Shown: piece after piece, positions 30,879-60,251 of the stretch
How positions within the stretch are numbered: the stretch's first letter is position 1
How the letters are laid out: each line of letters begins with the position of its first letter
Source: Geosiphon pyriformis
Taxonomy: Eukaryota; Glomeromycota; Glomeromycetes; Archaeosporales; Geosiphonaceae
Assembly (NCBI GenBank): GCA_016748015.1
Contig: JAAOMT010000258.1
Coordinates: 345,008 to 409,007, forward strand
Length of the DNA: 64,000 nt
Direction of reading: 5' to 3'
Position numbers and translations under genes: made by a program
Notes under the pieces: model-generated
What the model was told of the DNA's origin: nothing
Seen by the model: the letters and a program-made list of their open reading frames with translations, nothing else
Database searches by the model: none

Positions 30879-33099
30879 TCATATATAATTATGAATATCA
30901 ATAATCAATAGCATTAACCTATTTTCAATTTTAGTAGTTATAATCCAAATTGCAATTTATAATTTTTGTACAATGTAAAAATATTTTTGGAAGCAATCTT
31001 CTCTAATTCATCAAATACTCTCCTGGAGGCTCATGTGCCTTAATTCATTGCAATCATACATATTTATAAAAATAAATTATTTTTATTTATTGGTTAACAC
31101 AAATGAATAAATTTCTGTTGCTAATTTATTTATTGTATAATGAGACAAATAATTTAATGATTTATAAAAAAATTATCTGGCACACCTAAATAAAGTATTT
31201 GAGAAATATTGAGGTTTATTTTTTTTTCTTGAAAAGTGTTAAGTTGTCAATAATTTCGCCAATTTATTTATACAATTTGAGTTGTTTTTTTATATGAGCT
31301 TTTTTCAGTCAACAATAAATTTTTAAGCATTTTTAACTGAGTTAAAAAACAAAAGTATTTGAGCAGTTATACATTTGTATATGCATTTTTTATTTTATTA
31401 CTAATTTGTTTTTTTCTTAGAATTGATATTAAAATAAGTTTCAATTACAATTTTTAATTGTAAAATATTGTTCAAAAATAATTAAAACATCAAAATAATT
31501 TTTATTTAATATTTATAAAAAAATTTCAGAATAATTTTTTTTCAATATGTAAAACTTTGTTTTCATAAATATTATTTTTATCAAAAAATATTTTAATACT
31601 TATTTTTTAAAAAGAAATTAAGAATAGTGCTAAGTTTTTATTACAAAATATTTGTTTTAATATCTGTTTTTATTAAAAGTTTATGGTATAATTAAAAGTT
31701 TTGTATGCAGAAAGTTTAATAATATAATTTTATTTTATAAATTTATGTTTTTATTAGTTTTGTTAATATTTTACACAATGTTTATAAGAATTTGTAAAAA
31801 AATTTCTAAATTTCTAAATTAAAAGACATTTTTCTGTTAATAGTAATTTTTTTAATAATTAATATAGCAATATATTCAAATATTGCTTTAATTTTTATTT
31901 TATTTTTATTTAAATTTTCAGAAATAAATTAAATAAAATATTAACTTCTTTTTTAATTTTATTTTCTACTTTATTTTTTTTGTTATTTTGTTGTTTTTAT
32001 AAAACTAATAAATTGAAAAAATTAGTATTGAAATTGTAACATTAAAAATTATTTAATAAAAAATACAAAACATAAACATAAAATTAATTTATTAAAAGTT
32101 AAATACTTATTAGAAAAATAAAAAACATTATAATAAACTGGTTACTATACCAAAAAAATAAAACGCTAAATATAAAAGTTATTAGATTATTGAATTTCTG
32201 TTTTTTATACAAAAAATTCGAGTTAAATCTTTAAATTATAAAACCTAATTCATAAAATCAACTTATAATATTTGTTGTTTTTTATAAGGTATAATTTAAA
32301 TTTTATTAGAAATTATATTATTATTTATAGCAAAGCCAAAAAATTTATGATTTATCTTTTAAAAAATTCAAAATATAGAACTATTTTCAAAAAATATAAA
32401 TCTTTATTTAACAAATTCAGATTAAAATTCTTAATTTTATTATTATTAAGTTTATTATTTCTATTATTAAATTTTAAATTAAAAAATAACTGGAAATAAT
32501 TAATTAAAAAAACCAAAAATTAAAAAAAATTAAAAAAATCTAATCTTAAATTCAATTTTTATTTATACTTTAGAGCTTATTGTTTTAAAATTTATTATTC
32601 TAAATTTTATTATATTAATATTAGTAAATTTATTTTCAACTGCATTAATACTCTATTATTAATTATTCTAAAAAAACTGATTAAAAAAGTTTATTTTTTA
32701 TTAATAGCATTAATAATCTACATATTTATTGTCAAATTAAAAAAATTTACAAACAAAAAAACAATATTCAAACTTGATTAAATAATATTAAAAAAGCTAT
32801 TATTGTTAATAATTAAAATATTGTAAAATCAATACAAACAATTTTATTATATTTTTAAAACATAATAGATATGTAATATTAAAATTTAATTATAAAATCA
32901 GTTAACTTTAATATATTTATAACTGTTTTTTACAATATTTTAATAATCTAAATAGTATTATTAAATTATAAAACTAATTTAATATGATTAAATAAAATAA
33001 TAACAAAACAATTATTACTTATTTATAATATTTTATTAAAGCTTATAATAAATACAAACAATTAACTATAACAAAACTTTTTGTCTTCTTAATTTTATA

Positions 33100-35000
33100 A
33101 TTACTACCAAAGCAAAAAGTAAAAAGACTGCATTTAATATTTTTTCTGAAATATTTAATAAAATTTCAACCAGAAAAGTTCTCTCTGTTGTAGAAACAAC
33201 TAGGCAAAACGTTTTAAAAGTCTTTTCTTTACTCAGTAATCATAAAAGCTGCCTTTAATAACTGTTAAAGCATTTTTTCATTTTTAGCTGGTTTTTACTA
33301 GTCAAAGTTCTCTTAAAAAAACATATTTAAGTTAGTCCCAATGTTGTTTCTACCTTCTTAAAAAGCCCAAAATTTTTTAATAACATACTAGTTAACAAGC
33401 TGGTGTTTCTTTTTATAGTTTTTATATCAGATGTTATTAATATTTTTTCTTTAAAAGTTCAAAAAAAAGGAAGCAGTTGCTCGTTTTTGCTATTGTTACA
33501 CTGAATTTTTTTGTAATTCCTAATAAGATTTTAAATAAAATCTCTATTATATTATCTAACAAGTTATTTAAGATAGACTAAAATTAACTATTGATTATAT
33601 TGTCAAATATAGTGTTTTTTAGCAGATCATTACCAGTTTTAAAAGCAAGCAACTATTTTTTGTAAAGTTATCTGTTCTTGAAAACTGGACTAACTAAATA
33701 AAAATTAATTCATTTTTTTTGCTAATTTTTGGTACTGCTATTAGTAATGCTTGAAAAATTATTACTAATTATTAAAAATTTGCTGGATAAATAACTTCTA
33801 TTATAGTGTTTGGTACTATTTTTAAGATTAAATTGGCTTATATTAAAGCTGTTTTTTAGTCTATACATAGTTTTTTAGGTGTAAAATCAATATTAAAAGA
33901 CAATATAAAACTTTTTTGTATAGAGTTTGCTTCTTAAAAGTCTTTGAAAGTTGCTTTTTTAGTTAAGCTTACAAGCTTTGTTTATTTGGCCACTTTTAAA
34001 ATTGCCAAGTCTTTGGTAATTTCTGAGTCTGGTTTTTTTTTGCTGTTATTATACTGTATAATATACTTTTAGATATATCTGCTGCTAATATCAAGATAGC
34101 TCTTAGTGTGTTTGATAAAATTATTTGTATTGTGTTGAAGTCTGCTAGTATTTGACAATATGTGATTGTTTACTTTAGTAAAATAGACTCTGTTGTATTC
34201 ATTTTAAATCATTAATCAGTTTTAATAAACAAAGATCTTTTTTTTGATAAATTAGAATAAAACTATTATGTCTTATAATAAGTTTAAAACCAAGTTGGTT
34301 AATCTTTTTTTTGGCTGTACTGTTTTTAAAATTAGTAATATAATTTTTCAAGTTGGTAACCAAACATGTTTTATTTTTTGCTTTTTTAATTCTGGTTGTT
34401 GTTTCTGGTTTGCTCTGGTTATATTTGAATTTTAAGTAGATTTAGATGCTATTGTAATTAAAACTAGTACACTAAGAAAATGTCACATCTGATAAAAAAT
34501 TTCTGACTGTTAATACTGTTTTAGTTATTAAAAAGTAGACTATTTGGCTGTAGATTGTAAAGTATCTCCACTTTTTATTTCTAAAACTTCCAAAATATTT
34601 ACACTCTATTTTGTGAGTTTTAAGTCTTATGCCAAAGTTTTTGTCCCTTTAATTTTTTGGTGCTGTCTTAGTTGTTTTTTTTGGAATTTGATCTGACCAA
34701 ACTTTTTGTATTGATTGTGTTAATTGTTAAGTCTATTAATTTTCTGGTTATTATTTTTGAATAGTTTATTAAAAGTAATTTGGTTTTAAGCAGTATTTTA
34801 ATCTTAAAATTAATAAATTTATAGTTTATTTGAGTTTTTTTAGCAAAGTTGTTAGTAAGTTGAAAAAAAAAGTAGTTTTACTGAAAAAAAAGTGTTGTAT
34901 AGATAATATTAATATGTCTAATAATTTGAATTATCTGATTGGTATTGATAATGATATATTTTTTAATTTGATGTTTTTTTAAATATATGAGCCTAATAGT
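33100..35000 (+). mobile_element. Decayed LINE ORF1-like relic
   Basis: This part keeps more G than its surroundings. Between 33923 and 34033 one frame reads E-F-A-S, a stop, then S-L-K-V-A-F-L-V-K-L-T-S and, further on, L-A-T-F-K-I-A-K-S-L-V-I-S-E-S-G. This resembles the ORF1 of the LINE family I recall from arbuscular mycorrhizal fungi. Around 33140-33230 another segment reads like S-T-R-K-V-L-S-V-V-E-T-T-R-Q-N-V-L. Many stops and length changes interrupt the frame. The family link is from memory and needs alignment; that it is coding-derived and heavily mutated is visible directly. Confidence 0.5.
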
Positions 35001-36359
35001 ATTAAAATTGATCTTTTAAAAACAGCTGAATAGTAAATTAAATTAGTCTCTTATAGCATATAATTATTTAATATAGTTTAAAAGATGTCAGTTTTAAGTA
35101 AATTTACTTTTATTATAACAATATAACATAGTCTAAATTGATTTAAATAATTGGTTATATGTAAAAAGTATGTAAACTATATTTAATTTGGAATGTTTAG
35201 TTTGTTTTATAATTTTAAATAATAATTAAACCATATTCATTAAACTTAATATAAAAAAAAAATTAAACTTAATTATTATATTTAATAATTTTTAAAAAAC
35301 TGTTATATTAACCAAAAATTTTGAATTATTTAAGCTATTAACTTAATATAAAATAAATTAGCTAAATTAAATACTAAATTAAAACAATTTAATAAATTTA
35401 TTATATAATATTTAAAGAATACTTAATTAATAATAAGTCTATATATTAGTTTTTACAATAAAAAAAATTAAAATAGAATATGAGTTATATTAATAAGTTT
35501 AATTTTAATAATAGCTAGAATAGACTTAAATTTACAATTATTTCCAAAAAAAATCATATTAAAATTATAATTACCAAATTAAAGACAAAAAATTAACATA
35601 AAAACTTTAATAATTAATATTAAATTCTAATTTATAAATTTAAGAACTTGTAAAAACAATATTAATACTATTTATATTATCTACTATTATTTTAACTATT
35701 AATATACTTATTATATTACAATTATTTTATTTGTATTTTATCTATTAAACACAATTTTTAAGATTATTACAATTAAACTAAATATTTACATAGTAAATAA
35801 TAAGCAAAAATCAGAATTGGTAATTGGTATTAATTATTTATTAACTAATTTCTAATATTGCTAGTTCTTAATATAAAAATTATGTTAGTAATTTGAAAAA
35901 TGCTTCTTTTTAATATTTAAATTAACAAAGCTAATTAAATTTTTATAAAACTTTAAAAACTGAAATTATTAACAATAACCAAAAAACAGATAACAATAAT
36001 CTTATAAATAATAATATTTTATCTACTATTATTATTATTTTTTGGCCATTTTTCTATCTAATTTAAGTAAACATGAATCACAAAAATTATTATTTAATAA
36101 AGTTGTTTTAAACTTAAAAAAGCCAATTATAATAATATATATTAATATAAAAATTAATAATTTATTTAGGGAATTGCTAAATCGACCATCCGTAATATGT
36201 GATATTAATATATATAGAATTTTAATAGTAATTCTAGTTTAATTAAAATAAAAAATAATTTTTTCTTATATAAAATTGAATATAGATTATATATTTAATT
36301 TTTTATTATGCCTTAAGTAATTCATATTGTTTTATAATTAAAAAACACTTCGTTAATAT

Positions 36360-36440
36360 GTTCCTATATAGTTGAATACGAAACTATGACGTAAAATAAT
36401 ATCACGTGTTACGGGTGGGTCGATTTAGCAATTTCCTTAA
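36360..36440. other. Isolated CpG-containing pocket in the AT block
   Basis: About 80 bases with CACGTGTTACGGGTGGGTCG and several CpG sites, in a region where CpG is otherwise nearly absent for kilobases. It contains CACGTG, which also occurs in the LINE 3' end, but no longer similarity is seen. It could be a surviving fragment of a younger insertion. Confidence 0.4.
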
Positions 36441-39400
36441 TTTATTAAGCTTATTTTTAATAATAATTTAGCAAACAATATTATTACAAAACAAAATATA
36501 AACTAATTAAGTTGTTAAATTAATTATGCTAATAAAATTACAAACATATTGTAAACAATATTAACAATTTTTTATTAAAGTCAACAAAATTATTATATTT
36601 ATCAAAGTTTTAATTATAAAAGCTATATAATACTAAGTTTTTATTAATAATAACTGTTTAAAATTTATGCTATGCTAAATAAAAATATTTATTAATTTTA
36701 ATTAGATTTTAATAAACATTATGCAAAAATACTAGCAATTTATAATTACTTTAAAATAATTCCTATCTAAGATTAGCTGTTTATTAAATTCAAAATAACA
36801 GTAAAACAATTTATATTAAAAACTTTTCAAATTAATAATAATTATATTACTTATTATAACTACTTACTTAAGAAAAAACAAAAAAAAACAACTAATAATA
36901 TTAAGATATTTATGTTTAAATAAGTAATCTTAATTATATTAATATCTAAAACTAAAATATGTTAAATACAAAAAATTTATTATTTAATAAAATATATTTT
37001 TTATTCAATAAAAAATAATTAAAAATTATTTAGTTTTATTATAAAATATGCCATAAAAAAATATTTGACTAATCAAAAAACAAAAAATAAGATATTATTT
37101 TATAATTTATTTATAAAAAAACTTTGTTTAATAAATATATATAAAATAATATAGCAAATTAAAAAACAATTAAATATTAACCAAGTTAGAAAATTATTTA
37201 TATAAAATTTAAAAAATAAGTAAATAATATTACTTTTATATTTTAAAACTAATTAATTATTAAAATTTTTAATTAATAAAATATATAATAATTATGGTAA
37301 TATTAATTTTAAATTCGCAAAACCAAATTTTTGTATAAGTATTTTGGCTTTTTTTGCAATAATTAAAACTTTTAAAATATCTAATTATATAATATTTAAG
37401 ATTTTTATCTGAATTTTTAAAGTTATTTTCTTTAAGATTTATATATTTTTATGATTTTACCAAGAAGTTTATAGTATTTAAGTAGTTTTTATATAACAGA
37501 TTTTTGTTGATAAACAAACTTTTATTATTTGTTTTAAATAATAAGCAAGATATTTATAAGATTGATTATATATATTGAATTTATACAAATTTAATTTGTT
37601 TATTAAGTTAAAATATTCTTTATTATTTTTATCGTTTTTTTGTTATCTATTAAGATTTTTATTTGACTATAATAATATAATTTTGTTTGGTAAAAGACGT
37701 TTTTTTATTGATATAAGCAATAATATGTTTTTTTGTTATTATTTAATTGAAATAAAATAATACTTAATTAAAATTTAAAGGCACTAATATAAAAAATAAA
37801 AAGCTTATTTAGATTAAATTGTTTTAAAATAGACTTAAAAATTAATTTTTCTTTAAAAGATTTGAAAGTTTTTATTAAACTGTATTATAATAATAGTTTA
37901 TATATTTTTGAAAAGCCAATTTAAAAATAAACAATTTTTAATAATATAAAACTAATATAAAAAAAATTAAATTTATTAATTACTTGAATTTTTTCTTTTT
38001 TATCTTGGCTAAATTAAAAAAAGATTTTATTTTTTAAATAAAATATTCTAAAAAACAAATAAATTAGCATTTAAAAAAAATTTACTCAGATTTCATCTTG
38101 AAATTTGTATTTTAAAAAAAATTAAAAATTGGTTCTAAATATTTATTTCAAATTTTTCAATATATAATTATATAATTAAAATATACAAAAACAAACTTTT
38201 TATAAATTAGGTTAAACATTTTATAAAAAAGTGAGTTGAATATTTATCAATTTAAAAAATATTATTATATAATAAAAACAGTTTTATTTTTGTTAATAAA
38301 ATTTATTTTTATTTGTTTAAATTCAATAGTTAAATAAATTATTAAGAAGAATATTGTATATTTAAATTTATTAACATTTTTATAATATTAAAAAAATAAA
38401 GATTTTATTTATTGTTTATATTTAGCTAGTAATAATTAATACAAAATTGTAGGATTTTTTTTTTGAATACTACTACAATTATAAATGTTTATTTATTTTT
38501 AGTTTTCTGTATAAATTAAAGATTTTTATTTATTTTATTAATCGAATTGATAAAACTTTATATGAATTAATTAAATTGGTTTGTTAATATTTTTTTAATA
38601 GATTTTATTTGCTTAATTAATAAGAACTTAATTTTGAGTACTTTTTTTAAATGATTTTTTTATTTTATTTTTTTATTTATTACATATCAAACTAATAGTT
38701 TTCAATTTTGTAATAAATTAATACTATTTTGTATTATTATTAAAAAATTACAAAAATTAATTGTATTAATATTTTGTATAAAAACTTATTACCAATAATT
38801 TTATATAATTTTTTTGTTAAATTGTTATTAGAATATTTTTTGAAACATGATATAAAATAATTAATAAATAAGTTTACTATTTATAATTAAACTTTTACAT
38901 ATTATTTAAAAATATATTTTATTGCTAAATATTGTAAAAATCAACTCAATTTTTTTGTTTTTTAAATTGCTGTTATTATTATTAAATTACTTTTGAAAAT
39001 ACTATTTAATATTAATACTTTACTATAATTTGTTTTTTATTATATTAAATAATAAACTTATATAATTTATAATTTAGCTAAGTTTTATTTTTTTTTGTTT
39101 TTAATATTTTAATATTAATTTTAATACATATTTTATTAATTTAAACAGATATAGCTTTTGGAATTTTAAATTTTTATTATTATTATAAATATTAGTTATT
39201 AATTTTATTAAAAATTTATTTATTTTATTTCTAATTACTTTAAAAAATACTAAGTTATTATCAAAAAACTATTATTTAAAATTAAATTTATAAATTATCT
39301 AGCTATTTATAATTTACAAATCAGAAAAATAATATTATTATTTATTAATTTTTGACAATTTTTTCTAAGATTTAAGACTTTTGTAAAAATTTTCAGAATT

Positions 39401-42204
39401 ATAAATGAGTTATTAACTAATTAAATATTGTATAATTAGATATTTTTATAAGATTTAACTTTGGTAAATTCATAAATGTTTTTGTTTATAGTATTTTATT
39501 TTTTTATTGAATATTAAAACAGCTTTATTAAAATTAAAGTTAAAGCTAATTTTTTGCTTTTTGAATTTTGTATAGCCAAAAAATTTACTATTTATATCTT
39601 ATATTTTAGTATAATTATTAGTCAAATTAAAACTATATTAGAAGTTTTTTTTCTTTATAACTTATATTTTTACTTTAAAAAATATATTTATTAGTTTAAA
39701 ACAAATATTTTGTTGTTTTAATTAAGAAATTTTTTTTAAAAGTTTATACAAGTTTAATTAAATTTTAAATTAAATATTTATTTATAATTTTAGAAATTTT
39801 AATCATATTAAAATTGTTACTATTAATTGATATTAATTTTTTGTGTTAATTTAATTGTTATATTTGAAATTAAATTGGTTTTTAAGCAAAAATAATAGAA
39901 TATAAAAAAATTAGATTTTAATTTTTTTATAAAAAAAATATTTTTTGCTTTTTAGTCTATTTTTTTTAAAGTTTACATATTTTATTAACTTTTAAATTGC
40001 TTTTGCATATTTTATAATTATTTATTTTGTATTTTACAGATATTATTCAAATTTTATTAGTTATTTAATTAAAATAAAAATTTTCAAATTAAATAGTAAA
40101 AAAGATATTAATTTGGTTTGTATTTTTAAAAAACTATTTTATTGGTTATTTTTTAAATAAATTATGTAACAAAAAATTCTTAAAAATATTTTCTAAATAT
40201 TTAAGCTTGTAGTTATTATTATACTGATTCTTGTAATTATTTTTTTAAAATCTTTTAATTATTTAATTAAATTTTAAGTATTTTTTTAAAATAAAAATAA
40301 GAGAATTATATTTTGTTAATTAAAAACTGTTTGAATTCTTTGAAAAAAAGTAAAATATTGTTGTCATAAAAAATAATTGATTAAATTATTATATTAAATA
40401 TTGGAATTTATAATAAAGTTTTTTTTGTTTTCATTTTTTGGTAAAATTTTAAGCAATTAATACACAGCTATTTAATTATAAATTTAATAATTTAAAACTT
40501 TAAACTTAAAAAATAATTGTCTAAAAAAACTGAAAATAATATTTTATTAAGGTTATTATTTTTGTTTTAAAATTTTTTTAAAATAAATTTATTGAAAAGT
40601 AATTAATATAACAGAATAAATTTTAATTAAAGAATTTATATAAAACCAATTTTAAAAATCTTAACAAAAAAACAAATAAAACAAAATAAAAAAATAAATT
40701 TTAATATATTCTAAATTGTTTTAATTATAAATATAAAATAATCTTGAATTTTTTGTGTTTTAAAAAAAATAATTGTGTATATTATAATAAATAAATTAAA
40801 AATTTAACAATTTTATAAAAAGCTTTATTTTTATAATATAAATTAGAACAATATATTAATAAATAACAAAAAAAAACAAATATTATATAATAAAAAAATA
40901 ATAAAAAATTAAAATTTGTAAAAGTTTTATATATAAAATTATTTATAAATATTTTAATTGTTATTTTTTCTATTAATAAAAAATAACACAATTACAATAA
41001 TTATATATTATATATTAATATTTTTATAATTTAATAACAAATATTATTTGTATTTTTCAATAAATTTTTATTTAATATGTTTTAAAAAAGCTAACAAAAT
41101 ACAAATTAAGAAAAAATAAAATAAAATAAAGAAGTTAATATTATTGTATTAATTTTTGTTTAAATAAAATAATTTAAATATAAATAATTTGAAATAATAA
41201 TTAAGTTATTTATTAAATTCATAATTATATTAACAAATATTGTTTTTTGTTTAGATTTTATGCTTTTTGTTTATATTTATAAAAATATATATTAAAACTA
41301 ATAATATAATTGTTTTTGAAAATACTTTAAAACATTTTTAAATCTGTTTGTTATGTTTAATAAAAAGCTAAATCTGATATTACTATTGTAAATAAGATTT
41401 TTTTAATAAATATTGATTAGATTTAATTATTTTTGATTTTTTATTCAAATTTTTATATAGCTATTAGACATATAAATAGTATTATAACAAATTTACACTT
41501 CTTTTTAATAAAATTTTTGTATTATTATCTGTTTATTATTATTTGTAAATACTTATATGATAAAAAGTATTTTAATATTTTGTGTTATATTGTAAAAAAA
41601 TAGAGTTTTTTGATTATTTTTTCTCTTGTAAAATAAATTTGGATATTTGTAAAAATTATTAAAATTATATATGGCTTTGTAAAAGTTTATATTGAGTTTA
41701 AACCAATTATTATTATGTGTTTTATAATTTTTATTATTATATATATTAGATAATATTATATATGTTATATTAGATAAAAATTTTATTTTTAAAGACTAAT
41801 ACATAAAAGCTCTTTTTGTTTTTGAGAATTTTAAAGTAATTATTAACAAAATTGTAAATTTTATGTATAATTTAAAGATAATTTATTATAATAAAATATT
41901 ATTAATTTAATTTAAGTTTAGAATATTTATGAAAAAAAATAGTTTAATATTCTATAATACCTTTATGTCTTCTGTTATCTAAAAATTTTTGTTTTTGCTT
42001 TTTGATAGTATTATAAAACTGTTTAAAATTGTTTAATATTTTGATATTTGTTTTAAAATATACAAATTGTGTTTATTTTTACAAATATTAATAATATTAT
42101 TTATGCTAAAATAAGTTTATAATAATGTTTTAACTGGTTTAAATAACTGGTTGTATTTAAAAATATATAATTTATGCTTAGTTTAAATCATTTTTTTTTA
42201 TTAA

Positions 42205-42270
42205 AAGCTTAACGAGTGAAGCCCAACTGCTATCTAGTACATAAAGCCAAACTAAGTGATAAATTATTTA
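42205..42270 (-). mobile_element. LINE 3'-end fragment, reverse orientation
   Basis: Read on the minus strand it gives TTTATGTACTAGATAGCAG, then TTGGGCTTCACTCGTTAA. The LINE end at 53110-53150 reads TTGTACTAGGTAGTGTTTAGACTTCACTCATTAAACG. The upstream part of the fragment is already AT-decayed. Confidence 0.65.
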
Positions 42271-46292: not shown

Positions 46293-47413
46293 ATGGAGGA
46301 TACCTATTCAACTCTTGTGAACTATATTTTGGAAAAGTTACCATTGTAAGGACTATTCTTTTCACAATTTGGTATAATAAAAGTTATTAATTTTTTTATA
46401 ACATAGCCTTGAAACTAAGACACGTTTGTTAATTGCGATCGCTGGCGTTCCTGGTTCGGGAAAGACATCTTTGGCTAGAACTCTTATTTCCAATATCAAT
46501 AATCGTCATGGAATGGAAGTTGCTGCGATGATACCCATGGATGGTTTTCATTACCCAAAGTCTGCATTAGATAAATTTGCGGTAAAAAATTCTTCTTGCC
46601 AATTATTGCTCATCAATAAATAAGTTTTAAGTGAAAATTAATTGTATATTTGACAATCTAAAGAATCCTAAAGAGGCACATGACAGGCGTGGTTCTCATT
46701 GGACTTTTGATGTCGAAGGTAATTAATTGCTTAAGAATTTTTCTAATTAAATTTACCGTTCGTCAATGTATAATATTCTCAAAATCTAAATCACGTAATA
46801 TAGGCCTTTTAGTGCTTACCAGAAATTTGCGGGCCAAAATTGATGATGAAAAAAGTCTTGAAATAAGTGCACCTTCTTTTGACCATGCTGTAGGCGACCC
46901 TATACCTGACGATATAAAGATTTTTCCCCAGTTATATTTATTTCTAATTTTGAGACCCATTTTTTATGGAATTAACTTAATTCATCACCACATTTGTTTT
47001 TTCTATTACAGCCATCGAATCATAATATTGGAGGGGCTTTATCTACATTTAAGTAAGCCCGATCCCTGGCTAGAAATCTCGAAACAGATGGACGAATTAT
47101 GGTTTGTTGAAGTAGATATGGTCATTGCGAGAACTCGAGTGATTCGGAGGCATTTGACCAGTGGCATAGGTAGGTTGGATCAGACGAATAAAAGTTCTCT
47201 TTTATCGCTTCAAAGTTAATACGATATTGAAAATCAATAATTTTTTATTTCTGCTTTGAAGCTAAAGATAAGAAATCAGCTATTTTCAGAGTCGAAAATA
47301 ATGATATGCCAAATGCTGAATATCTTTTAAAAAACCGAGTCTCTCCGACTCGCGTAATACAAAGTATAGAAGATGAGAGAGAAATTAGATTATCAGAAGC
47401 TTCGAAAAATTAA
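46293..47413 (+). CDS. P-loop kinase of the uridine kinase/Yfh7-like group, 6 exons
   Basis: Exons 46293-46345, 46407-46581, 46664-46718, 46804-46930, 47012-47169 and 47262-47413 keep phase and give 239 residues. The start M-E-D-T-Y-S-T-L leads to a Walker A motif, G-V-P-G-S-G-K-T (31-38). It is followed by I-P-M-D-G-F-H-Y, then A-H-D-R-R-G-S-H-W-T-F-D, P-S-F-D-H-A-V-G-D-P, the strand I-I-I-L-E-G-L-Y-L, the P-W motif and an Arg-rich lid (R-T-R-V-I-R-R-H). This order is typical of the phosphoribulokinase/uridine kinase-like proteins of fungi (Yfh7) and bacterial FrcK-like kinases; the substrate is not known. It should be a soluble ATP-dependent kinase. The gene is complete despite lying inside a long decayed AT block, so it is probably under selection. 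Intron 4 uses a GTTATA donor. Confidence 0.87.
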
Positions 47414-49469
47414 GTTGTGGAATGTATAAACATTTAAGTTTTCTCAATACGTAAAATCTTTTTTTGATTTTATTATTTTATAACTTCTTGAAATTTTTTA
47501 TAAAAATATTATTAAAATGTGTCTTATATTAACTTTTATAAGGTCATTTTTAAAAGCAAAATATTTATTTATTTACTTTATAAAAAATTATTAATTAAAG
47601 TTTTAATTGATTTAAATTGTAAATTAATATTTTAGACAAATCTTTGCAACTTGGCTTATTCTCGAAATTTTGTAATATTTATAGAATATTAATTTTTCAT
47701 TTTATTTGATTGTTTATTAATATATTAAAACAATATTTAAATTTGATTATTATTTCATATTAAGAATTAAATAAAATTTGCATCCAATAACTTAATATAT
47801 ATTTAGAATTGTAATTATATAACAATTAAGTATTATACTGATTAAAATGTTATTTTGATTGCTTAAACATTAAAATATTGTTTTATTTAAAACAAATTTA
47901 TTATTTCATTTATAATATTTGTAATTGTTAAATTTAATTATTTTTTAGTCTTTTATATGTTAATATAGCAACAAAAAAAGATTTTCATAGTAAAAGCAGT
48001 TTAACAAAATGGTTTTGAAGTATTTCTTTTAAATAAGACTTTAGTTGTTTTATTTAACACTTTTTGACCAGTTTTTTTGCAATTTTAATCATAGCAATCA
48101 GTTTTAATTTAAACAATAATAGCAATAATATATTTATTAAGATAAAAACAGATTAATATTTAGCTGTATTATTTAACATAATTACTTTTAAATAATTGAC
48201 TGATGTTATAAAATCTAAAACAACAAATTTTTTTGAAACTGTTATATTATTTCATATTATATTTAATATTAAGCAGTTATTACTAGTTATCAAAAAAATT
48301 TTAAATTATTAATTTTTTTTTAGTGTTTAATACTTTTTTAAAAATTAAATTAAATAATGTAAAATTGTATTTTAGTTATTATATAGCTTTTTGTCTTAAA
48401 TTAGCCATTAAAAATAATATTAAGCTGTTTTATCTAAAATTTACATTTTAAAATTTTTTAAATACTGTCATTAAAATTGAACTTTTTAAATTATTTTTTT
48501 ATTACATTAAAAATTTAAAATTTTTGTAATCTTTAAATATGTTTTTAATTTTGCTATTATTTTATTTCATAATATTTTACTTAATTTATTTTTTAATAAT
48601 ATTAAAAATGCTTTTAAAATATTTAGCAAAATTATTATTATTATACCAAAATATGTTATTTTATATTGTTTATTTTAAAAACTTGATTTTTGTTAATTTA
48701 GCTTTTACTTGCTAATTAATTTTAAAACTGGATTTTAAAAAAAAATTTAGCTTTTTTAATTTTTTTAGGATTTTTAATAAATTTGTCACAATTATACCAA
48801 TAATAATCTGGCTATAAACAATAATTTTTATTTTTTTTGGATAATATTAGTAATAATATGTTTGTTAAAGTTAGTTCTAATCAGTATATAGTTAAATTGC
48901 TTAATATATTAAATTTTAATTAATTTTTATTAGTTTTAAATACAAAACAAGTAATATTTTTACATATAACTTTAATTAATTAACTTATTAAATCATTTAA
49001 TCTTAAAAATTAAATTAATAAAATAAAAACTAACATATTTTTTTTTGTTTTTTGAAAACACTATTAAATTAATTGTATTTGAATAATTCTTACTACTGTT
49101 AAAAATTTTTAAATGAATAATATTACTTAAATAAAAAATAGCAAAAATAATAATATTATTAGATTAAATATAAGTATTATAAATAATATAATAAATAAAA
49201 GTTTTAAAAATGCCAAAAATAATTTGAAAAATACCAAAAATACCAGAAATCTTAAAATACCAAAATAATTTTAAAATAACTAAAAAATAGTTAAAAATAT
49301 TAGAATATTTTGTACTATTAAAAATAAATTTATATATTAATAATAATAATTAATAAAAAAAATTTAACACTTAAAAAACAAAAAATTTAAAATTATTTTT
49401 ACTTTTAAATTAATCATATTTTAAATAAAATATTATTTAAATTACTGTTGTTATTATTTTTTTATTTTA
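47414..49469. other. AT-decayed DNA, nothing recognised
   Basis: The composition falls to near-pure A/T within about 100 bases of the kinase stop codon. No reading frame, repeat end or RNA gene is recognisable. Confidence 0.6.
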
Positions 49470-49566
49470 TTAAAGTTTTACGACCACTACCTAAGTACAT
49501 AAAATCAAACAGATCCTAAATTAAGCATGGCTCATGCTTTTTTCTACACGTGACCAGCCACTCGGT
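49470..49566 (-). mobile_element. LINE 3'-end fragment, reverse orientation, with 3' hairpin
   Basis: On the minus strand it reads GAGTGGCTGGTCACGTGTAG, an A run, a GCATG-containing hairpin (49523-49539), and then TGTACTTAGGTAGTGGTCG followed by an A-rich tail. It matches the last 100 bases of the LINE at 53050-53130. The rest of the element (towards higher coordinates) has decayed beyond recognition. Confidence 0.75.
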
Positions 49567-51666
49567 AAATTATTTTAGTAATACTAAAACATAATTATAA
49601 ATAATATTACTTTTAAAAGATTTATTTTTTATTATTTTTATTTTTTATTTTTGAATTATTTTGTTTAAAAAAATAGCATTGAAAATACAATATTACAAAT
49701 AATCTAATAAAAAAATTTTATTAAAAAACTTTTAAATTAAATTTTCAAAAATAATCATTTATAAAATAGCTTTAAATTATGAAAAACTACTTAAAAATAA
49801 TATTTGATAAAACAGTAAAAATTAAAGTAGTTTACATTAAAACTATGTTTTAATTTCTGTATAATTACTTTAATTTAATATTAATTATTAAAGACAATAT
49901 TTGGCTTTTTTATGTAAAGTTTTTTTAGATTTCTTAAATATTGTTATTTAAATTTAATTGATTAAATTATTTTTTTATTATTTTAAAATTGTAAAGTCTT
50001 TTATAGCATTTGAATTTAGTATTGTTTTTGTTGTTATTAATTTTTATAATATTTTCTTTAAAGTTATTGTAAATAATATTAAGTATTTTTGATAAATTTT
50101 TAAATATTAAGTTGAAGTTTATTAGTTAATAATAATATAGTTGTGTATTTTAAGTAAAAAATTACACTTGTTTTATTTTTTAATTTTACTTAATAATTAA
50201 AATATATTAAATTATTAATATTATTTTAAGTAATAAAATTTAAATTATTTGGTTTTAAAGTATAAAATATTTTTATCTTATTTGTTAAAGTTTTTATCTA
50301 AATTTTTAATAAGTTTTAAGATTTTTAAGAATTAGTTTATTGGTTTAAAGTTAAATAATAAAACTATTATCTTTTTAGTTTTTTTTTATTGTTGTTTTTT
50401 ATTCTATAATTAGTTTTAGACCTTTTTTTTTGAAATTTGAATTGACAAAATTGTCTTTATTAATTAGATTTATTATTAAATTTATTGGTTTTTAATTGTT
50501 TTGATTACAAAATTGGTAAATATTTTATTGTAATTAAAAAACAAGTTAATATTTTTGGCAAATTTATAAGTAATTAAATAAAAAAACCAATTAAAATATA
50601 ATATTTATTAATATAAAATTAAGTAAAAAATTCTATCTAATTAATTTGTTATATTTTTATTAGTTATTATTTTAAAACTTAATAAAAAACAGAAATTTTG
50701 TTTATATAAAAGCTCTAATTTAAAGTTTTGTTTTGATTATATTTTTATTTCTATTAATTTTTAAAAAAACATAAATAATAATTATTTGTTAATTATATTA
50801 AATACTTAAAAATATATTACATATATTTTCGCAATAATAAATAAAATTAATAATTTTATAAATATTTTAAACAAAATTTTTAATATTTTATGTTTTAAAA
50901 TTATTCTTATATAATTGTTAATTATTAAAATAAAAAAACAACTTTTATTTTTTTTGTAGTTTTTAAAAATGCAACTATTTAAAAAAAATTTTAATTATAA
51001 AAACAACCAAACAATATTTTATAAAAGTGTTTTTCTTAATAATAATAAAACTAAGCAGTTTTTAAAATACTTTTTTTGTTTTTGGCTAAAAGTATTTTTT
51101 TAAATATTTTTATTAAAATTAAGCTTGTTAATTTTTTTTTATTTTTAAGATTGTTAAAAACTTTGTGGTTTTTGTTTTTGCTTTTGCTATTGTAATTTTT
51201 TATAATGGTTTTTTTAAAATCAAGTTGGTTAATTTTTTATTAATTATATACTATTTTTTAAAATTAATAATTTAGTTATTAAGTTTATAATTAAGTTTGT
51301 ATTATTTTTAATTTTTTAAATCTAATTATTAGCAAAAATATATTATAATTACTTTTAAATTCAAAAATATTTTTGTTGTAATTATTAAAGTTAGTATTTT
51401 AAAAAAAATTATATATTAATAACTTTTATAACTTAATATTTTATTTAAGATTGTAACTATTATTATTGATTTTAACTTTAAAACAATAAATAAAGCTTAT
51501 AAATTGAAATTAAAATAATATAAAATTTAAATTGCAAAATTTGTTTTATATAATAAAATTTATAATTAAAAAATCAATTAAAAATAAATACAAAGTTTAT
51601 TTTTTAAATGTTTATAATATAAAAAATTAATTAATTTAGATTAATTTTTACTTGTTACATTAAATT

Positions 51667-53022
51667 AATATAATAATAAAATTCTCTCGCAATTTTGGCA
51701 TTGTTTGTGACAATTTGTTGAACATTGACGCTACTGTTCGCCTCTCTGTATATATGGATGGGTCTCTAAGTGGTTTGAGTACTGTTGGTATGAAGACTGA
51801 TGCTACTGTTTTCATTAAGGACATTAATTTGGGGTTGGGTGTGAAGATGTCTGGTTTGGTTTCCTCTACGCTTATGAAGTCGCAGGCCATTGCTCTGGCT
51901 CTTGAGTGTGTTCCCGCTTTTCGTTTAGTGGATTTGTTCTTGAACAGCCAGGCTGCTTTGGATGCATGCAAATCCGAATTCCTACTGGCTTGGCCGGACT
52001 TCAAGAATCGTTGTTGGATCGAGCATCACCACATTACTAATGTCATTTGTGATAAGAATTTGAATGTGAATTGGGTCAAAGTAAAAGGTCATTCAGGTAT
52101 TCCTGGCAACAAACATGCTGACTCACTTGCAGGAGTCGCTGTCTCATCTTCTTAGTGACTGCCACACAGGATTGATGAATGGTTTTTAAAAGCTGGTGAC
52201 TCTGCCATTTCTGGTAATTCAAGACATTTTGTTCATGATATCTTCCAATCAGTTCATTGGGTGCATTGGGAAGTTGGATTTGGTTTCCAAGTTTTGGTGA
52301 ATAGTTTGCAAAGTGATGTTGATTGGGCCAGGTCTGTTTCAGTATGGCACCCAGATTCTCACATGGCTGCTGGCTTCACTAGTTTGCGTACTGCTAGCTT
52401 TCAGACTTATTTCATGAAGGCTCTGCATCATCAACTTCCTGTTGCCGTGCATAAGCGTCTATATAATAGGCTTTACTCCAGTATAGTGTGCTTATTCTGT
52501 GGTGAGATTGAGATTTCTGATCATGTTTTTTCCTGCTTCTTTGACATCATTGGCCATGAGCATTTGATAAACACTTATGCAGTTGTTTGGGAGGCATGCT
52601 CTGGTTTATCTCGTTCTTCTTTGTGCATTTCCCAGTTACTGTTCACTTGTGTTTCAAATTGTGTGGTTGGGGTGGCCCTATGTAAAAGATTTGTTTTCAA
52701 TAATTGGTATTGTAAATCTGTTTTTGTTTTTAAGGATTCCAGGGTGGTAGCTTGTAACATAGTGTTTTTTGTGTGTAAGTTTTGTGCTGCATTCCAGGAT
52801 GAAATCTGGTTGGTTCATGCAAAACACCAGATAGTGATGGAAAAGGGTAGGCTGATTCCTCGTGACAGCTCTATTCCTGCCTCTGTTTCTGGTTTTTCTA
52901 TGGGTTTTTCAGCAGGTGTTGTTAGATTGTTGGGGTTGCTAATACAATTAGTATCCATTTCGGGTTTTATAGATCTTGTTTATTTTTTTCTGGTGCTTGT
53001 GAAGAGGTTTCTGTTCATATAA
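51667..53022 (+). pseudogene. LINE ORF2 fragment: RNase H domain and Cys-rich tail, disabled
   Basis: A single frame spans the whole fragment, broken only by consecutive TAG and TGA codons at 52153-52158. The RNase H domain shows V-Y-M-D-G-S-L-S-G (first Asp kept), K-S-Q-A-I-A-L-A-L-E (the usual catalytic Glu before xQAI is Lys), N-S-Q-A-A-L-D-A (usual Asp is Asn), then K-V-K-G-H-S-G and A-D-S-L-A (last Asp kept). After the stops come V-W-H-P-D-S-H-M-A-A-G-F-T-S, M-K-A-L-H-H-Q-L-P-V-A-V and L-F-C-G-E-I-E-I-S-D-H-V-F-S-C, a conserved tail of this LINE type. All changes named fit G-to-A or C-to-T transitions. The encoded enzyme would have removed RNA from the RNA/DNA hybrid during retrotransposition; this copy cannot. 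Confidence 0.85.
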
Positions 53023-53071
53023 GTGCATAGTGTTGTTCTGACTGGTCTGAGTGGCTGGTCACGTGTAGAAA

Positions 53072-53088
53072 AGGCATGATTCATGCCT
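53072..53088 (+). promoter_or_regulatory. Hairpin in the LINE 3' UTR
   Basis: AGGCATG-ATT-CATGCCT forms a 7-bp stem with a 3-nt loop, about 45 nt after the ORF2 stop. The reverse-oriented copy at 49.5 kb forms AAGCATG-AGC-CATGCTT, where one G:C pair is replaced by A:T. Such 3' structures are often what LINE reverse transcriptases recognise; that role is inferred here. Confidence 0.55.
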
Positions 53089-53160
53089 AGTTTAGATTAT
53101 TTAATGATGTATTGTACTAGGTAGTGTTTAGACTTCACTCATTAAACGAAATAAAAAAAA

Positions 53161-56100
53161 AATAATAAAATAATAAAATAAAATTTTACAAAGAAATAAC
53201 AAAAATAAATATAAAAATTTATTAATAATAATAAGTATAAAAATTTTATGTAAATAAAATAAAATTAGCAAGCTTTTTTAATTTATTAAAAAAATAATAT
53301 GTATTAATATATGTTTAAATAATTAATTATATTAAAATTATTTGTATTATACTTAAATAATATAACTATTTTAAATTTAATATATAAGTTTAATTATTAT
53401 TTAATACAATATAATTATATAAAATTTTAAATTAGATATAATTTTTTTACATATAATTAATATAAGTATAATTTAAATTAAATAGTATTAATTTTAAAAA
53501 AAATCTATTTTAAATAATTATTTTATATATATATATAGCTAAAATATTATTATTTTTAATTATATTATTTACATTATTCTTAATTACAAATAATTAAAGC
53601 TTTTAAAAAATTATTATTTTATTAAAAATTTTATTAACAAATAAATTATCATAAAAATCTATATTTTTATTATTAATATTATATTTTTAATCTTTAGCTT
53701 ATCTTTTTATAAATTAAATATAAAAAAATAAATATATAAAGAAAAAATTTATTTTTTTAAGTATTTATTGCTTATTAAAAAAATTAAAACCAAATTATCA
53801 GTTTTTATTGTAAATATATATTATAAAAAATAAAATAAAAAATTATATCTTATAAAAAAACTTCATTTTATAAGTGTAATTATTTCTATAAAAAACATGT
53901 AATATCTGTCAATATATTATTTTTATTAAAATCTGAAAATAAAAAAAATTCTGTTTACTATTAAGTTTTAAAAAAACTTAAATATTATTTAAATATTGAT
54001 CAAAAAATTATTTTTAATATTAAAATTATTATAAATATTAAAGTATATATTATTTAATTTTTAATTATAAAACTGTTTTTTATAGTTTATTAATTTAGTA
54101 TTTTATGTTAAAACTGTTGTTTTTTTATTATTATATAAGTTTAACTTTTTAATATTAATTCTTAATAAAAAATATATAAATATAAATTAAATTATTAAAG
54201 TCAAAATTGCAAAATTTGTTTAATGTAATAAAATTTGTTATTAAAAAGATAAAATTTTTAAATACTAAAAAAAATTTTATTACATATGTTAAATTATATA
54301 TTATATTATTAAAAATTTAGTTTTAACTTATTTTTAAGATAATAACTTATTTGTTTAAAGATTTTAATCAGATTAAAAATAGTTTTTAGTTGTTATTAAT
54401 TATAATAAATTGTATTAAATATGAGTTGTAACAAAAAATAATAATATATAAAAAAACAAAAAAAAATATATAAACATAATTATAATAAATAAATATTTAT
54501 TAAATTAGATCTAAATAGCTAGCTATATATTAAAAATACATAATTTATGCTTAGAATAATTTTATATAATTAATAAAAAAAATTACTTTATAAAACATTA
54601 AAAAAATTTAAATTTAAATTATGTTTATTTTTTAAATTAGTTAATTTATTATTATAATGCTTAAAAAAACAAATCTAATTAATTTTATGCAAATATAAAA
54701 GTTTTAAAAAATATATTATCTAATTAATATATAATTAAATAATTAATTAATATAAAAAAATAGCTTAGAATTTTAAATATGAGCTTTATTAATTGTAAAA
54801 AAACTTGGATATTTTATAAAATAATAAGTAAAATATTATATTTGTTAAATAATTATACATGAGCTTTTTATAATTGTTTATATATAAATAATAAAAATAA
54901 ATTATTTAATTAACTTTATTATTTTATAATAGTATTATAAAAAATTTAATAACAAAAACAAAAAAACAATAGTTTTACTATTAAAATATTGATTTAATAC
55001 TAAAAATAATTAATAATTATTATTATATTAATGAATCTAATAAATAATTAATCAGACAATTTATAATAAAATAATTAATAAATTACTGTTTAGGCAAAAG
55101 CCAAAACTCAATTAACAATACAAACTATTAACATTAATTTTATCTACTAAACATTGGTTATTACTATTACTATTACAACAACACCGTTTGGTATATCAAT
55201 TAAAATTTAAAACAAAAGTTAAAATAAAATAATATTTTATAAATTTCTGATTTTTATTTATTTATAATTTAATTTGTAAAAATTTTCAAATATAACCATT
55301 TGCTATAATTAAATTATGTATTACTTTAAATTATGTAACAATAAAATATTTGTTAAATTTGAACGAAATTGCCAAAATGCTTAATAGTTTATTAAATTAA
55401 TTTTTATTTGAGAGAAATTTGCTAGAATCTTTCTTGAAATAGTATGATTCAAAATATATTCTACAATAGTTCAGAAATCTTAATACTTGAATAAATAGAA
55501 TTAATTATAGCAAATCTTTTTTTTCAAATTATAAGCACAAAAAATATATATTTTTAAATTATATTATTAGGCTCGAAATTAATAACTGCAAAGTTGATTA
55601 GCTATTAATTTATTTTTTTAAAATCAAATATAATATTATTACAATTAAGTGAAAAAATTGATCTGGAAACAATTTAAATTGAACATCTTCAGCAGTTTGA
55701 AAACTTTCAAATTTTGGTCTTCGAAATTAAAACCTAACATTTTTATAGTTAAAGATTACTAATAATTAGCAAAAAATGAAAGTTAAATTATTTAAAAACT
55801 ACTCTATACAACCATAATAAAAATTGGCTATTCTTATTTTGTACTACTGAACAAAATTAATATTTGAAATAATAGAATATTATTTTCAATACCAAAAGTT
55901 TTTTTAATAATATTGATGCTAACTATGACAAATCTAATCCAAAACAATAATTATGGCAGCAACTTAAGCCAAAGCAACATTAGTAGCACCAATAAAAAAA
56001 TAACAGCAAAATTAAAAAACCAACAAAGAAATAAACAACAAAACTAGATAAGCAAACCCAATTCAACAAACAATTTAATTTTTAATTGGCTATAAATTTG

Positions 56101-59100
56101 GCCAGCCAAATAGCAAATTGCCAATTCTGTTATTATTATTTTTTATTAGCGGCTTTTTTTAAAGGATTTTCGTTTTTATAAATATTGTTTGATAAGCACT
56201 TTTTAAATGATACAATAGTTATACAATAGTGATTTAATTATTTTATAAAAATTGCATATATTCTTACTATTAAGTATTTTGCTATTTTTTTAATCAATCT
56301 TTTTAAAATAGTGTTATGTTTTACTTTTAATATTATGTTTTTTAAAAATAATATAACCATATTTTAGTTTTTAATATATTTTTAATGTCATAAAATAATT
56401 CAAAGAGTGAAAATTTTGCCTCGAATTTATTTTTATTATGTTAAAATAAATTAAAGCAGTTGTTCATATCACAACTTTTGGTTTTTTTTACAAATTATTA
56501 TATAAATATTAAACATATTTAAAAACAACAAATTCAACTTGTAATATATATTTAAGTTAAATTTACATTTTAGCAAAATATATTTTTTATATATCAATCC
56601 AAGTGTGATATTCAATTAAACTTAAAATAAATCGAATTAAAAATAAAATTTTGACCTCAAAAAGTTCATATTTCCCAAAGAACACATAGCTATTATATTA
56701 TTTAAAATAAATAATAATAAATTTAGCTGTCAACCTTTTTGTTCTGCTTTTAACATATTGATGTTAACTATTTTTGAAATCATTTGTTTTAAGATAATTC
56801 TATGAAAAAAATAAATAAATTTTGGGTTCAAAGTACATAATTTTATACTATTATCTCAAATTTTTATACATAAGGTTTTGAATTTAAGTTGTAATATTTA
56901 AAAATCTTGAATTTATTAAATCTTAATTTAACAAAAGATTAATTCAAAATTGTTTATAATTTTGGTTTAAAATTTTAAACCTTCAAAGTTTAATAATAAT
57001 GTTTAAATATTATATTTAATCATTGATTTAATTAATAACTTGATTTTTAACTTAATTATTAAATTAATTATTGACAAAATTATTGGCCTATGCGTTAATT
57101 TAGTCTTTTTCTTAATAAATATATACACAAAATATCTCAAAGCTATAAAAAAGATTTAATTAATTACAGTCTCAATAGTATTTTATTTAAATAAAAGTTG
57201 AATCAATAATTTCTTGAAATTGTATTTGTTAAAATTAACTTAATTAAAAACGTTTTTTTGTAATTTATTAAGTAAATAACAATTAAAAATAAATAATATC
57301 TATTATTAAATTCTAAAAACACTAAGTAAGACATAGAATTATAACAACAGTGTTAATTGAATTTTTTAAATATTAAGTTTGCTTTCTTGTTAAACTTTCT
57401 TTTAATTAAACTTATATTGCTTTCAATTTTTCAATTCTTGCTATTTATTAGTTTTTATTCCAATCTATAAAAATCTATTATATTTAATTATTTTTTATAA
57501 ATCAATGTCAGTTTTGATTACATAATTAACTAACAATAATAACTTAATTAAAAATAGATAATTAAAATAAATAACTAAATTATAACTTATAATAATTAGA
57601 AATGGTTTTTAAAACATTAATATTATGGTATTAAAAAAGCTTTTTTATTTTGAATAACTTTTAACATAACCATTAAATTAAAATTATTGAATTGATACAA
57701 CTTATTGCGAGAAAAATAGGAATACCAATATTAAATAAACAAATAAAATCACAATTTTAAAATAGTATTAAAAATTTTTCGTTAAAATTTACAAAAATAT
57801 TATTGGGAACATTCACTTAAGTTTAAAATTTTAATTAAAACAATATACAATAAAATACTGGTTAATATTAATATGCAAAACAATATCTGAATAATGCCAA
57901 AAATATTTATCAAGGTAAATTAATAAATTTGTTACTAAATTGTATCCCATTTGAAGTAAATAACCTATTTTGTTGTGTTTATATATATGAAAGATTGTGT
58001 TGAATAAAAATTTTCACATTAATTAATTTTTCAAGCAAAATATTTTAATGTCAAAGCAAATTGAAAATGGATATAAAATATTGAAAAAATAATTGAATAA
58101 AAAATTTAAATTACATAAAAAATTATAACAGCAAATTTTTTGAAAGCAAGAAATTCAACAAATTTTCAGAATCCAACATAAAACAACTAACATACAAATA
58201 TTAATAATATTGCATATAAAAAATTAACACAGTTAATAACAATAGTAATAATAATAATAATAATAATTATTATTATTATAAATTTATAAATTTAAAATTT
58301 TTTTCTCATTTTAAAAATATTATTAAATTACAGTAGCACAATTTAAATAATTTCATTAATAAAAAATAGTCACAAAAAAAAATTTGATTACAAACTATTA
58401 ATATTAATTTGAAGCTCAATTTATTAATAAAAATAATATTTTTAAAACTATTAATAGTAAAATTAAATATAAATTATTGTAGAACTCAAGATTGACTAAA
58501 AAGTATTTTCAATTTAAAATACTCTTTATTATATAATAATTTGAAAATGGTTAATATTTTTTGAAAATAACATATGGGAGCAAAAATATTAAGATATTAA
58601 TTTAATTGGTTTTTCTCAATAACAACCACAGCAAAAAATAATAAACAAGTTTGTTATTATTTAAAAAATTCAATTTTTTATTAAATCACATAAGCTATAA
58701 TAATAAAGCTATTTAATAGGAATATTTCCATATCAATGTTAACTATTATGTTATGATTTAAAAAAAAATTATTATATAATTTACTGTTTCATATTTATTG
58801 TTATTTTTATAAAAATTGAATTCGATATAAATCAATAAAATTTCCAAAAAATAATCAAAATTTGATTAATTACAAACGAGTTATATATAACTCGAACTAA
58901 GAAACAATTTATGTATTAAATTATCAATAAAAATGTATAGTAATCTATTTAGGTTAATTCATAATTAGTCTTATTTATTTATTTTTTATATTATTGATTT
59001 GCAACATTTTCGTTTTTTAAAAAGATTTGTTTTGTCTTAAATTAAAGTCAATTGGAATTTTAATGTTATTTTTAATAAATTAATTAATGATAATATTTAT

Positions 59101-60190
59101 TGAAAGTTTATAAAGTTTGCTTATAAATACTAATAGCATTAATTTTGTTTATTGACAATTAGTGATATTTTTAATTTTAAACAATTTTGCTTTTTTTAAA
59201 TAAAAAAATTTGAAATATTTTGGTAAACTTCGAGCAATAATAATATTTGTTATTGATAAAAAAAGTTTTTTTAAAGATTTATCAAATCATATCAATTTAC
59301 TTTAGTTTTTTATTTTTGGTCTTAAATAATAATAAGCGTTTATATAAAATATTAAAAATAAAGAATTATTGCATATTTTCAAAAGTAAGCTATTTTTTAT
59401 TTCTTAAATATATTATTTAAGTTAATTAATTAATATATATATAAATTTCTTATAAACACCGAAAAATTTTACTTAATTATTATCAGTAATTTGTGACTTT
59501 TATAAAGACCTTAAACACTAAAATAAATTTTATAGATTATTAACATTAGATCAATTTATTGTGAGTTTATAAACTTGTAAATTTTTACCAATTCTTTACT
59601 TAATAATTGTTATCTAGCATAAAATATTAATTTTTTCACTAATTGCAATTATACTGATTTTCAAACAGTTAATAATTTTGTTATTTGAAAATTTTCATTT
59701 TTTAAATATTTAACCCATATTTTATTTAATATTATTAATCATCAATGAAATTCAATAGTTTTAACTTCTAATTAATAATAAAAAACACAATTGCTTTTTA
59801 AAATATATAAAATTAACCTTTATATTAATAATTTAATTTAATTTACATTATATATGTTCATAATAAAATAAATAAAATATTTTTCGTTGATTAATCAAAT
59901 TATTTCTTTTGCTACAATTCTGGTCTTATTAAAAATATATTTGAAAATGTTTAATCAAAATTTTCAAATCAGATACTAACACAAGTAAAAAGAGTTTAAT
60001 GTGAACTTTTTATAAATTAATTCAAATCTAAATAAATATGATAATTGAAGTTTTAAAGGCAAATTAAGTATTACAATGATAAAATGTAACTTTAAACAGT
60101 TTGTAAACCAACAAAAAAAACAATAACTTCAAAAAAAAGATATAAATAAAAATGTGCAGTTTATTTTCGGATTAATTTAATAATTTCATG
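53161..60190. other. AT-decayed DNA, nothing recognised
   Basis: Seven kilobases of near-pure A/T sequence. It becomes slightly less extreme from about 55,300, but no coding frame, RNA gene or repeat terminus could be identified. An inverted microsatellite is listed separately. Confidence 0.6.
58246..58280. repeat. Palindromic (TAA)n(TTA)n microsatellite
   Basis: AAT/TAA repeats run directly into ATT/TTA repeats, making a perfect inverted repeat that could fold into a long hairpin. Confidence 0.85.
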
Positions 60191-60251
60191 TGTTGAAAGT
60201 GGTTGCGTGTATAAAAAAAACCATATACTTGCAAAAATTTATTGTTTATTT

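Follow-up and report, generated by a model that had tools for sequence, protein, structure and literature searches.

Why does the block at 31.2-60.2 kb of a stretch of Geosiphon pyriformis DNA have a G+C content mostly of 8-17%, and what has removed its cytosines? The window, by which we mean the whole stretch of 64,000 nucleotides that was analysed (C298:345008-409007), had initially been annotated from its letters alone as holding a graveyard of long interspersed nuclear elements (LINEs), decayed by repeat-induced point mutation (RIP) or a methylation-linked equivalent in an early-diverging mycorrhizal lineage. That placement was near, Geosiphon being a glomeromycete, which lives with Nostoc. 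Here we show that changes in the repeats are specifically C to T, fall on both strands with distinct context preferences and occur in LINE and gypsy elements alike, that the single-copy DNA tested was spared, and that predicted cytosine methyltransferase genes are present in the genome. The data strongly support hypermutation from C to T in multi-copy DNA. The genome searched comprised 124.7 Mb in 406 contigs; the published assembly is described in PMC9453076 as having 129 Mb, 795 scaffolds, 29.25% G+C and 64.35% repeats.

Substitutions between copies of the repeats

Of 29 other loci matching the LINE end at 51.68-53.15 kb, 14 carry it in full length, at 84-89% identity. These (L012-L025) and the window copy form the family F1 (15 copies), in which changes were scored against the majority of the other copies; the short L026 and L027 were dropped from the counts. 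C>T or G>A changes were found at 1024 of 8905 C/G sites, as compared to 138 reverse transitions at 11352 sites and 54 transversions, which bears out the initial description of the copy differences as transitions of this type. The window copy alone had 74 such changes at 594 C/G sites, four reverse changes and one transversion. A second LINE family, F3 (10 copies, 2.7 kb), gave 997 changes at 10631 sites, with 191 reverse changes and 99 transversions. Both strands were changed in F1, with C>T at 439/3469 sites (0.127) and G>A at 585/5436 (0.108). Pieces of gypsy reverse transcriptase (RT) formed three clusters, with 12-29 transitions and 0-1 transversions (21 pairs), 27-44 and 0-3 (15 pairs), and 33-46 and 1-3 (3 pairs); 17 of 150 RT matches had been fetched and 16 clustered, L101 being left out as it had no close relative. 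Transitions outnumbered transversions by 12.7 to 78 times across the LINE and gypsy sets, and by 7.6 times in the oldest repeat set. L039 and L040 were dropped from every family and L053 from all counts; pair counts were made without L024 and L025 in F1 and without L030, L032 and L035 in the family F1b.

Gene-derived duplicates served as controls. The transition:transversion counts were 50:22 in a methyltransferase gene pair and 22:18, 12:6 and 13:8 in three partial copies of DNA from a single-copy island in the window. When the four were pooled (97:54), they differed from F1 and F3 with Fisher p values of 5e-27 and 5e-19, respectively, although the sites of any one set are partly interdependent. 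Between LINE families, the fixed differences numbered 49:38, 54:52 and 89:47 (1.0-1.9:1). Since such differences are expected to stem from active elements, we conclude that the one-sided process acts after insertion. Synonymous and nonsynonymous rates were alike in L055-L059, which likewise places those changes after insertion.

Two LINE relatives in the F3 alignments are of interest in their own right. L037 (L037:75-2795) retains a 907-aa open frame with RNase H and a weak RVT_1 match despite 83 C>T/G>A changes as compared to its relatives, and none of its 47 possible stop-making sites was changed (3.2 expected). In L054, 0 of 46 such sites were changed (4.8 expected), and its longest frame is just 367.

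Sequence context of the changes

Cytosines in CpG changed at a rate of 0.302 in F1 and 0.342 in F3, and non-CpG cytosines at 0.094 and 0.076; in F1, F3 and the gypsy sets RTa and RTb, the rate at CpG was 2.4-4.5 times that of other C. CpG was the most mutable context in transposons but not in gene DNA. Among non-CpG sites TpC ranked highest (0.150 in F1 and 0.109 in F3), followed by CpC (0.096 and 0.078) and then by ApC and GpC (0.055-0.068). The odds of change at TpC relative to [AG]pC were 2.46 (p 4e-22) in F1 and 2.05 (p 4e-14) in F3, and the preference was also seen in RTa (p 0.03) and RTb (p 0.001). In the repeat at 33.0-35.1 kb, a 5' T again gave the highest value (0.446 vs 0.219-0.291). 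CpA, the context of Neurospora RIP, was not preferred over Cp[CT] in the pooled LINE sets (282/3234 v 409/4111 in F1, 243/3608 v 402/4841 in F3); the values were 13/475 v 31/590 in RTa and 28/364 v 31/474 in RTb, where CpA was slightly higher. CC>TT double changes were not in excess (23 vs 29.4 expected in F1; 24 vs 20.2 in F3). At the measured forward and reverse rates, G+C would reach equilibrium at 3-6%, below the 8-12% of the three oldest stretches measured.

The AT-rich block and its parts

The proposed abrupt step in composition was found at both edges. On the left, G+C dropped from 0.28 (30801-31000) to 0.11 (31401-31600), within 31.0-31.4 kb; on the right, it rose at 60.2 kb from 0.19 (60001-60200) to 0.35 (60201-60400). 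The features on which the argument rests are as follows.

31200..44400: left part of the AT block; decayed repeats, 10-17% G+C (23% at 33.0-35.1 kb), poor in CpG and TpC and rich in GpC
33000..35100: decayed repeat with at least 39 other places at 71-79% identity; 5' T is the most changed context in 11 aligned rows
41331..42081, + strand: old LINE 3' end, 24-28% aa identity to LINE open reading frame (ORF) pieces; surrounding DNA 12% G+C
44400..47400: spared single-copy island; observed/expected (o/e) CpG 0.98 and TpC 1.06, G+C 0.32
46402-46623, + strand: island ORF with a Walker-A-like motif
46662-47219, + strand: island ORF with a weak match to PDB 2ga8 (E 7e-4)
47400..51600: middle part of the AT block, 12-15% G+C; strongest TpC loss at 48.2-51.5 kb (o/e 0.47-0.50)
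51673..53150, + strand: younger LINE 3' end with RNase H (PF00075)
53150..60200: right part of the AT block; 53.15-54.75 kb repeated with strong signature, 54.75-60.2 kb with few repeat matches and a mostly weaker signature
12250..14600, + strand: control hAT-like gene (DUF659, Dimer_Tnp_hAT), with a single place in the genome search and ordinary composition
6000..12000: control AT-rich DNA, 18-19% G+C, without the signature; no long repeat matches except a 5S rRNA gene and short AT-rich pieces

Outside the island and the younger LINE, CpG and TpC were mostly depleted in the block and GpC reached 1.6-4.8 times its expected value. For 31.2-44, 48-51.4 and 53.1-60.2 kb, respectively, o/e values were 0.37, 0.31 and 0.60 for CpG, 0.67, 0.50 and 0.74 for TpC, and 2.35, 2.75 and 2.40 for GpC. 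Loss of TpC and CpG with retention of GpC in the oldest DNA fits the context rates measured between copies. The AT-rich control DNA at 1-12 kb (21.8% G+C) was near normal in all three (CpG 1.00, TpC 1.05, GpC 1.06), so the block bears a mutational signature and not merely a low G+C. AT-richness as the sole cause was rejected, as 1-12 kb showed no part of this signature. The initial claim of near-total CpG loss holds as a depletion, with 49 CpG in total over the three stretches, but the extent of depletion varies along the block (o/e 1.16 at 35.1-36.5 kb and 0.84 at 58.45-60.2 kb) and part of it is inherited, L037 being already at 0.40 with its frame open.

The picture of a LINE graveyard was right in that the block is largely repetitive, and transition excess and context preference were both present in the aligned copies; neither of the outcomes initially named as refuting the interpretation was thus observed. 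Repeated parts outside the island include 33.0-35.1 kb, parts of 36.5-44.3 kb (about 40 or more long matches at 66-77% identity), 51.67-53.15 and 53.15-54.75 kb. LINE sequence was shown by protein match solely at 51.67-53.03 and 41.33-42.08 kb, both on the + strand; neither a LINE origin of the whole block nor the pieces in both orientations were thus borne out. The 33.0-35.1 kb repeat, aligned with 10 of 12 other places fetched (L051 and L052 omitted as short), matched neither the LINE nor the gypsy queries. In 54.75-60.2 kb the TpC/ApC ratio was 0.71-0.89, but 0.54 in a 250-base piece at 58.2-58.45 kb, as compared to 0.39-0.48 in the strongest parts of the block; the best 40 candidates were scored in each repeat search, so that few matches here are no proof of single copy.

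Single-copy DNA

All three single-copy stretches tested (12.25-14.6, 44.4-47.4 and 6-12 kb) were without the signature. For the island, the genome search gave short partial matches elsewhere and nothing more. Its ORFs had no Pfam match; the motif at 46402-46623 is one we take to be Walker-A-like, and together with the PDB match it suggests that the island carries a P-loop kinase-like gene. Single-copy DNA was spared in the tested stretches, to which selection may contribute in the case of genes. The hAT-transposase-like gene is perhaps domesticated. The 5S rRNA gene lies at 10778-10896 of the window, and 12 other places with 77-89% identity to it are scattered over the genome.

When 20 random 2.5-kb samples were examined, CpG o/e was at most 0.40 in 14 and 0.75-0.99 in the other six, suggesting a genome-wide scale of the process; the samples came from 45 contigs met in the searches (41.2 Mb) and do not represent all 406 fairly. 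TpC was depleted in just 5 of 100 bins, those below 20% G+C. In the remaining bins the process is visible by alignment and not by composition.

Cytosine methyltransferase genes

A search of the genome with PF00145 gave 10 exon matches at seven loci. The loci C355 and C327 have a BAH domain upstream (above the Pfam cut-off in C355, below it in C327), and the catalytic exon of C355 is nearest to PDB 9baq/9bap, which we take to be Neurospora DIM-2. C96 comes closest to DNMT1. The enzyme encoded at C318 most resembles a bacterial methyltransferase and DNMT1 and has an ENV motif; two ORFs upstream of it match no Pfam family. C346 (L009) and C307 (L007/L008) are presumably Dnmt2-like by their motif, making two in one genome, and Sel1-like repeats apparently adjoin the former. 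Judged by sequence similarity, genes of the DNMT1/DIM-2 class are present in the genome. A RID-type methyltransferase was not seen in this exon-wise search: motif VI reads ENV at six of the seven loci and is unreadable at the seventh (C318:820 kb). In RID and Masc1 this motif is EQT or EET, according to PMC6709928.

The C318 gene (C318:786780-790872, L001/L003) has an inverted, decayed partial copy 32 kb off (C318:819213-822836, L005). The pair, for which copy number was assessed by the PF00145 search alone and which is the one long duplicate pair tested, is 89-90% identical over about 1.1 kb aligned and shows an ordinary spectrum of 31 C>T/G>A changes, 19 reverse changes and 22 transversions.

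Tempo of the decay

Mean pairwise transitions/transversions per site were 0.046/0.0006 in RTa, 0.080/0.0026 in RTb, 0.083/0.0040 in the F3 core (without L037, L054 and L060-L062), 0.113/0.0047 in F1, 0.126/0.0047 in F1b and 0.192/0.025 in the saturating set F2. Because transitions and transversions climb together across the six sets, continuous decay is favoured. A one-shot burst is not needed to account for this comparison, although the youngest set still has the highest ratio. In F1 and F3 the changes were otherwise near-random in placement.

Weighing the explanations

We consider it somewhat better than an even bet that the repeats undergo a continuous, transposon-restricted, methylation-linked C-to-T decay in heterochromatin. 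According to this explanation, a strand-symmetric process confined to transposons would act on inserted copies in all contexts, most strongly at CpG and then at TpC. The copies would be packed in heterochromatin and methylated at cytosines, also outside CpG, by the encoded enzymes of the DNMT1/DIM-2 class; deamination of 5-methylcytosine, poorly repaired in heterochromatin, would then yield T. The losses would pile up over the life of each copy, driving the oldest DNA to about 8-12% G+C, and genes and single-copy DNA would be unmethylated and keep an ordinary spectrum. The block would be a sink of LINEs and other repeats that lose their cytosines once inserted, a part of the same explanation to which this slightly favourable estimate applies jointly.

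Several observations weigh against it. Polarisation by outgroups gave C>T:reverse:transversion counts of 5175:2431:212 in F1, 1020:465:136 in F3 (without L060-L062) and 804:320:42 in F1b, which speaks against a clean one-way picture; the reverse changes are inflated in these counts because outgroup copies carry C>T changes of their own. Synonymous change exceeded nonsynonymous change in L060-L062, so part of it predates insertion. Most F1 changes lie outside CpG (58 at CpG and 691 at other classified sites), and CG methylation of the kind seen in Rhizophagus would explain neither this majority nor the preference for a 5' T. The transition:transversion ratio of 78 in RTa, as compared to 20-31 in the next four sets, hints at some RIP-like front-loading, with few transversions (6 over 21 pairs). 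Slight same-strand runs were seen in F1 (8 of 300 shuffles as high) and not in F3 (136/300), and slight closeness of changes in F3 (12/300) and not in F1 (226/300). The island genes may owe their sparing to selection. Lastly, none of 39 other LINE places among the matches listed exceeded 92% identity to an open LINE (9 of at least 39 such places were taken into the analysis).

This last point also counts in favour of RIP in a wide sense, that is, a mild homology-triggered mutator turning C to T in multi-copy DNA through an enzyme of the DIM-2/DNMT1 class instead of RID, for which the mainly C>T changes on both strands of repeats, the three tested single-copy stretches without signature and the highest ratio in the youngest set also speak. 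We nevertheless hold this to be unlikely, though far from negligible, given the ordinary spectrum of the C318 gene duplicate, the presence of at least 39 further gypsy RT places that are 96-98% identical to one copy, the lack of a CpA preference in the LINE sets and of a RID motif in the six readable loci of seven. Copies below 80% identity are, moreover, far more decayed, and decay therefore seems to continue at low homology. RIP in the strict sense does not hold up against the CpA counts, the lack of a RID motif in the readable loci, the one spared gene duplicate and the near-identical gypsy RT copies. The initial proposal of RIP or a methylation-linked equivalent thus holds for the hypermutation itself, and its methylation-linked form fits better than strict RIP because of the ENV motif, the absence of a CpA preference, the ordinary-spectrum duplicate and the gypsy RT copies.

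Plain cytosine deamination left unrepaired in compact chromatin, free of methylation and with uracil badly handled in silent DNA, would give C>T in all contexts and on both strands, mostly singly scattered and accumulating continuously, in keeping with the observations. Such an origin is improbable in view of the higher mutability of CpG in F1, F3, RTa and RTb, which is expected of 5-methylcytosine, and of the CpG depletion in 14 of 20 random samples. APOBEC-like editing of retroelement intermediates and ultraviolet (UV) damage both favour TpC, and the TpC preference in the same four sets would suit either. Yet the sense-strand G>A rate (0.108) was not above that of C>T (0.127), CC>TT was not in excess and CpG was the top context, which leaves the two together very improbable. 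As sole causes, editing was rejected for want of a one-strand excess and UV for want of a CC>TT excess. Long-read callers can misread methylated C, so an assembly or base-calling artefact at such cytosines is conceivable in principle; with 0-2 indels per 2.7-kb F3 pair, and with old copies at 8-12% G+C that calling errors are unlikely to produce, we give it hardly any credence.

Comparison with other fungi

As in RIP of Neurospora and other Pezizomycotina, C>T changes affect multi-copy DNA on both strands, relic blocks rich in AT lie beside normal genes and the tested single-copy DNA is spared. The process in Geosiphon differs in having no overall CpA preference and no RID-type enzyme seen, in tolerating gypsy RT copies of 96-98% identity, in sparing one gene duplicate and, apparently, in accumulating mostly gradually. 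In Microbotryum a RIP-like pattern reportedly occurs at TpCpG. The 5' T preference resembles this pattern, but TpC is favoured here also without a following G. To our knowledge, arbuscular mycorrhizal fungi have no type I fatty-acid synthase, and PF08354, the model for that enzyme, had no match in the genome searched.

Transposons of Rhizophagus irregularis, of the same subphylum, carry CG methylation, as reported by Dallaire et al. 2021 (PMC8647823). The CpG depletion of Geosiphon repeats fits such transposon-directed cytosine methylation, but its C>T changes lie mostly outside CpG and show a TpC bias. The same authors cite the absence of a detected RIP signature in Gigaspora margarita and Mucoromycotina. 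According to PMC7862722, early-diverging fungi had Dim-2, which is able to methylate whatever the sequence context. Index-based RIP has been suggested, with caveats, in Z. radicans and relatives (Entomophthorales) in PMC11105155; Geosiphon resembles Z. radicans in that its repeats show C>T although it lies outside the clade in which RIP is classically known, and differs in that the test here used aligned copies and transversion controls. A survey of 1,239 genomes (Badet and Croll 2025, PMC12543289) found RIP-like enrichment in ascomycetes alone, as against the strong repeat-restricted C>T process seen here. Such a process could escape a k-mer screen if the repeats are similar in composition to the rest of the non-coding DNA. 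A literature search that left out the genome paper (Malar et al. 2021) found no report of RIP in Geosiphon.

The results suggest a decay resembling genome defence, which was not anticipated for this group of fungi. If methylation outside CpG is the cause, it predicts a methylome that can be tested; if homology is the trigger, the process would be analogous to RIP but would do without RID. Either reading would explain the CpG-normal and CpG-poor classes of sampled DNA. More tentatively, and with the odds against it, Glomeromycota, here represented by Geosiphon, may own a transposon-directed C-to-T mutator, RID- and CpA-independent and preferring CpG and TpC, in a lineage long thought asexual, by which C>T changes in retroelements would outnumber transversions some 10- to 55-fold and the AT-rich part of the genome would be built.

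Genes flanking the block

Two BTB-domain genes flank the AT-rich block, at 25165-26004 (- strand) and 61777-62622 (+ strand), and their tails are similar.

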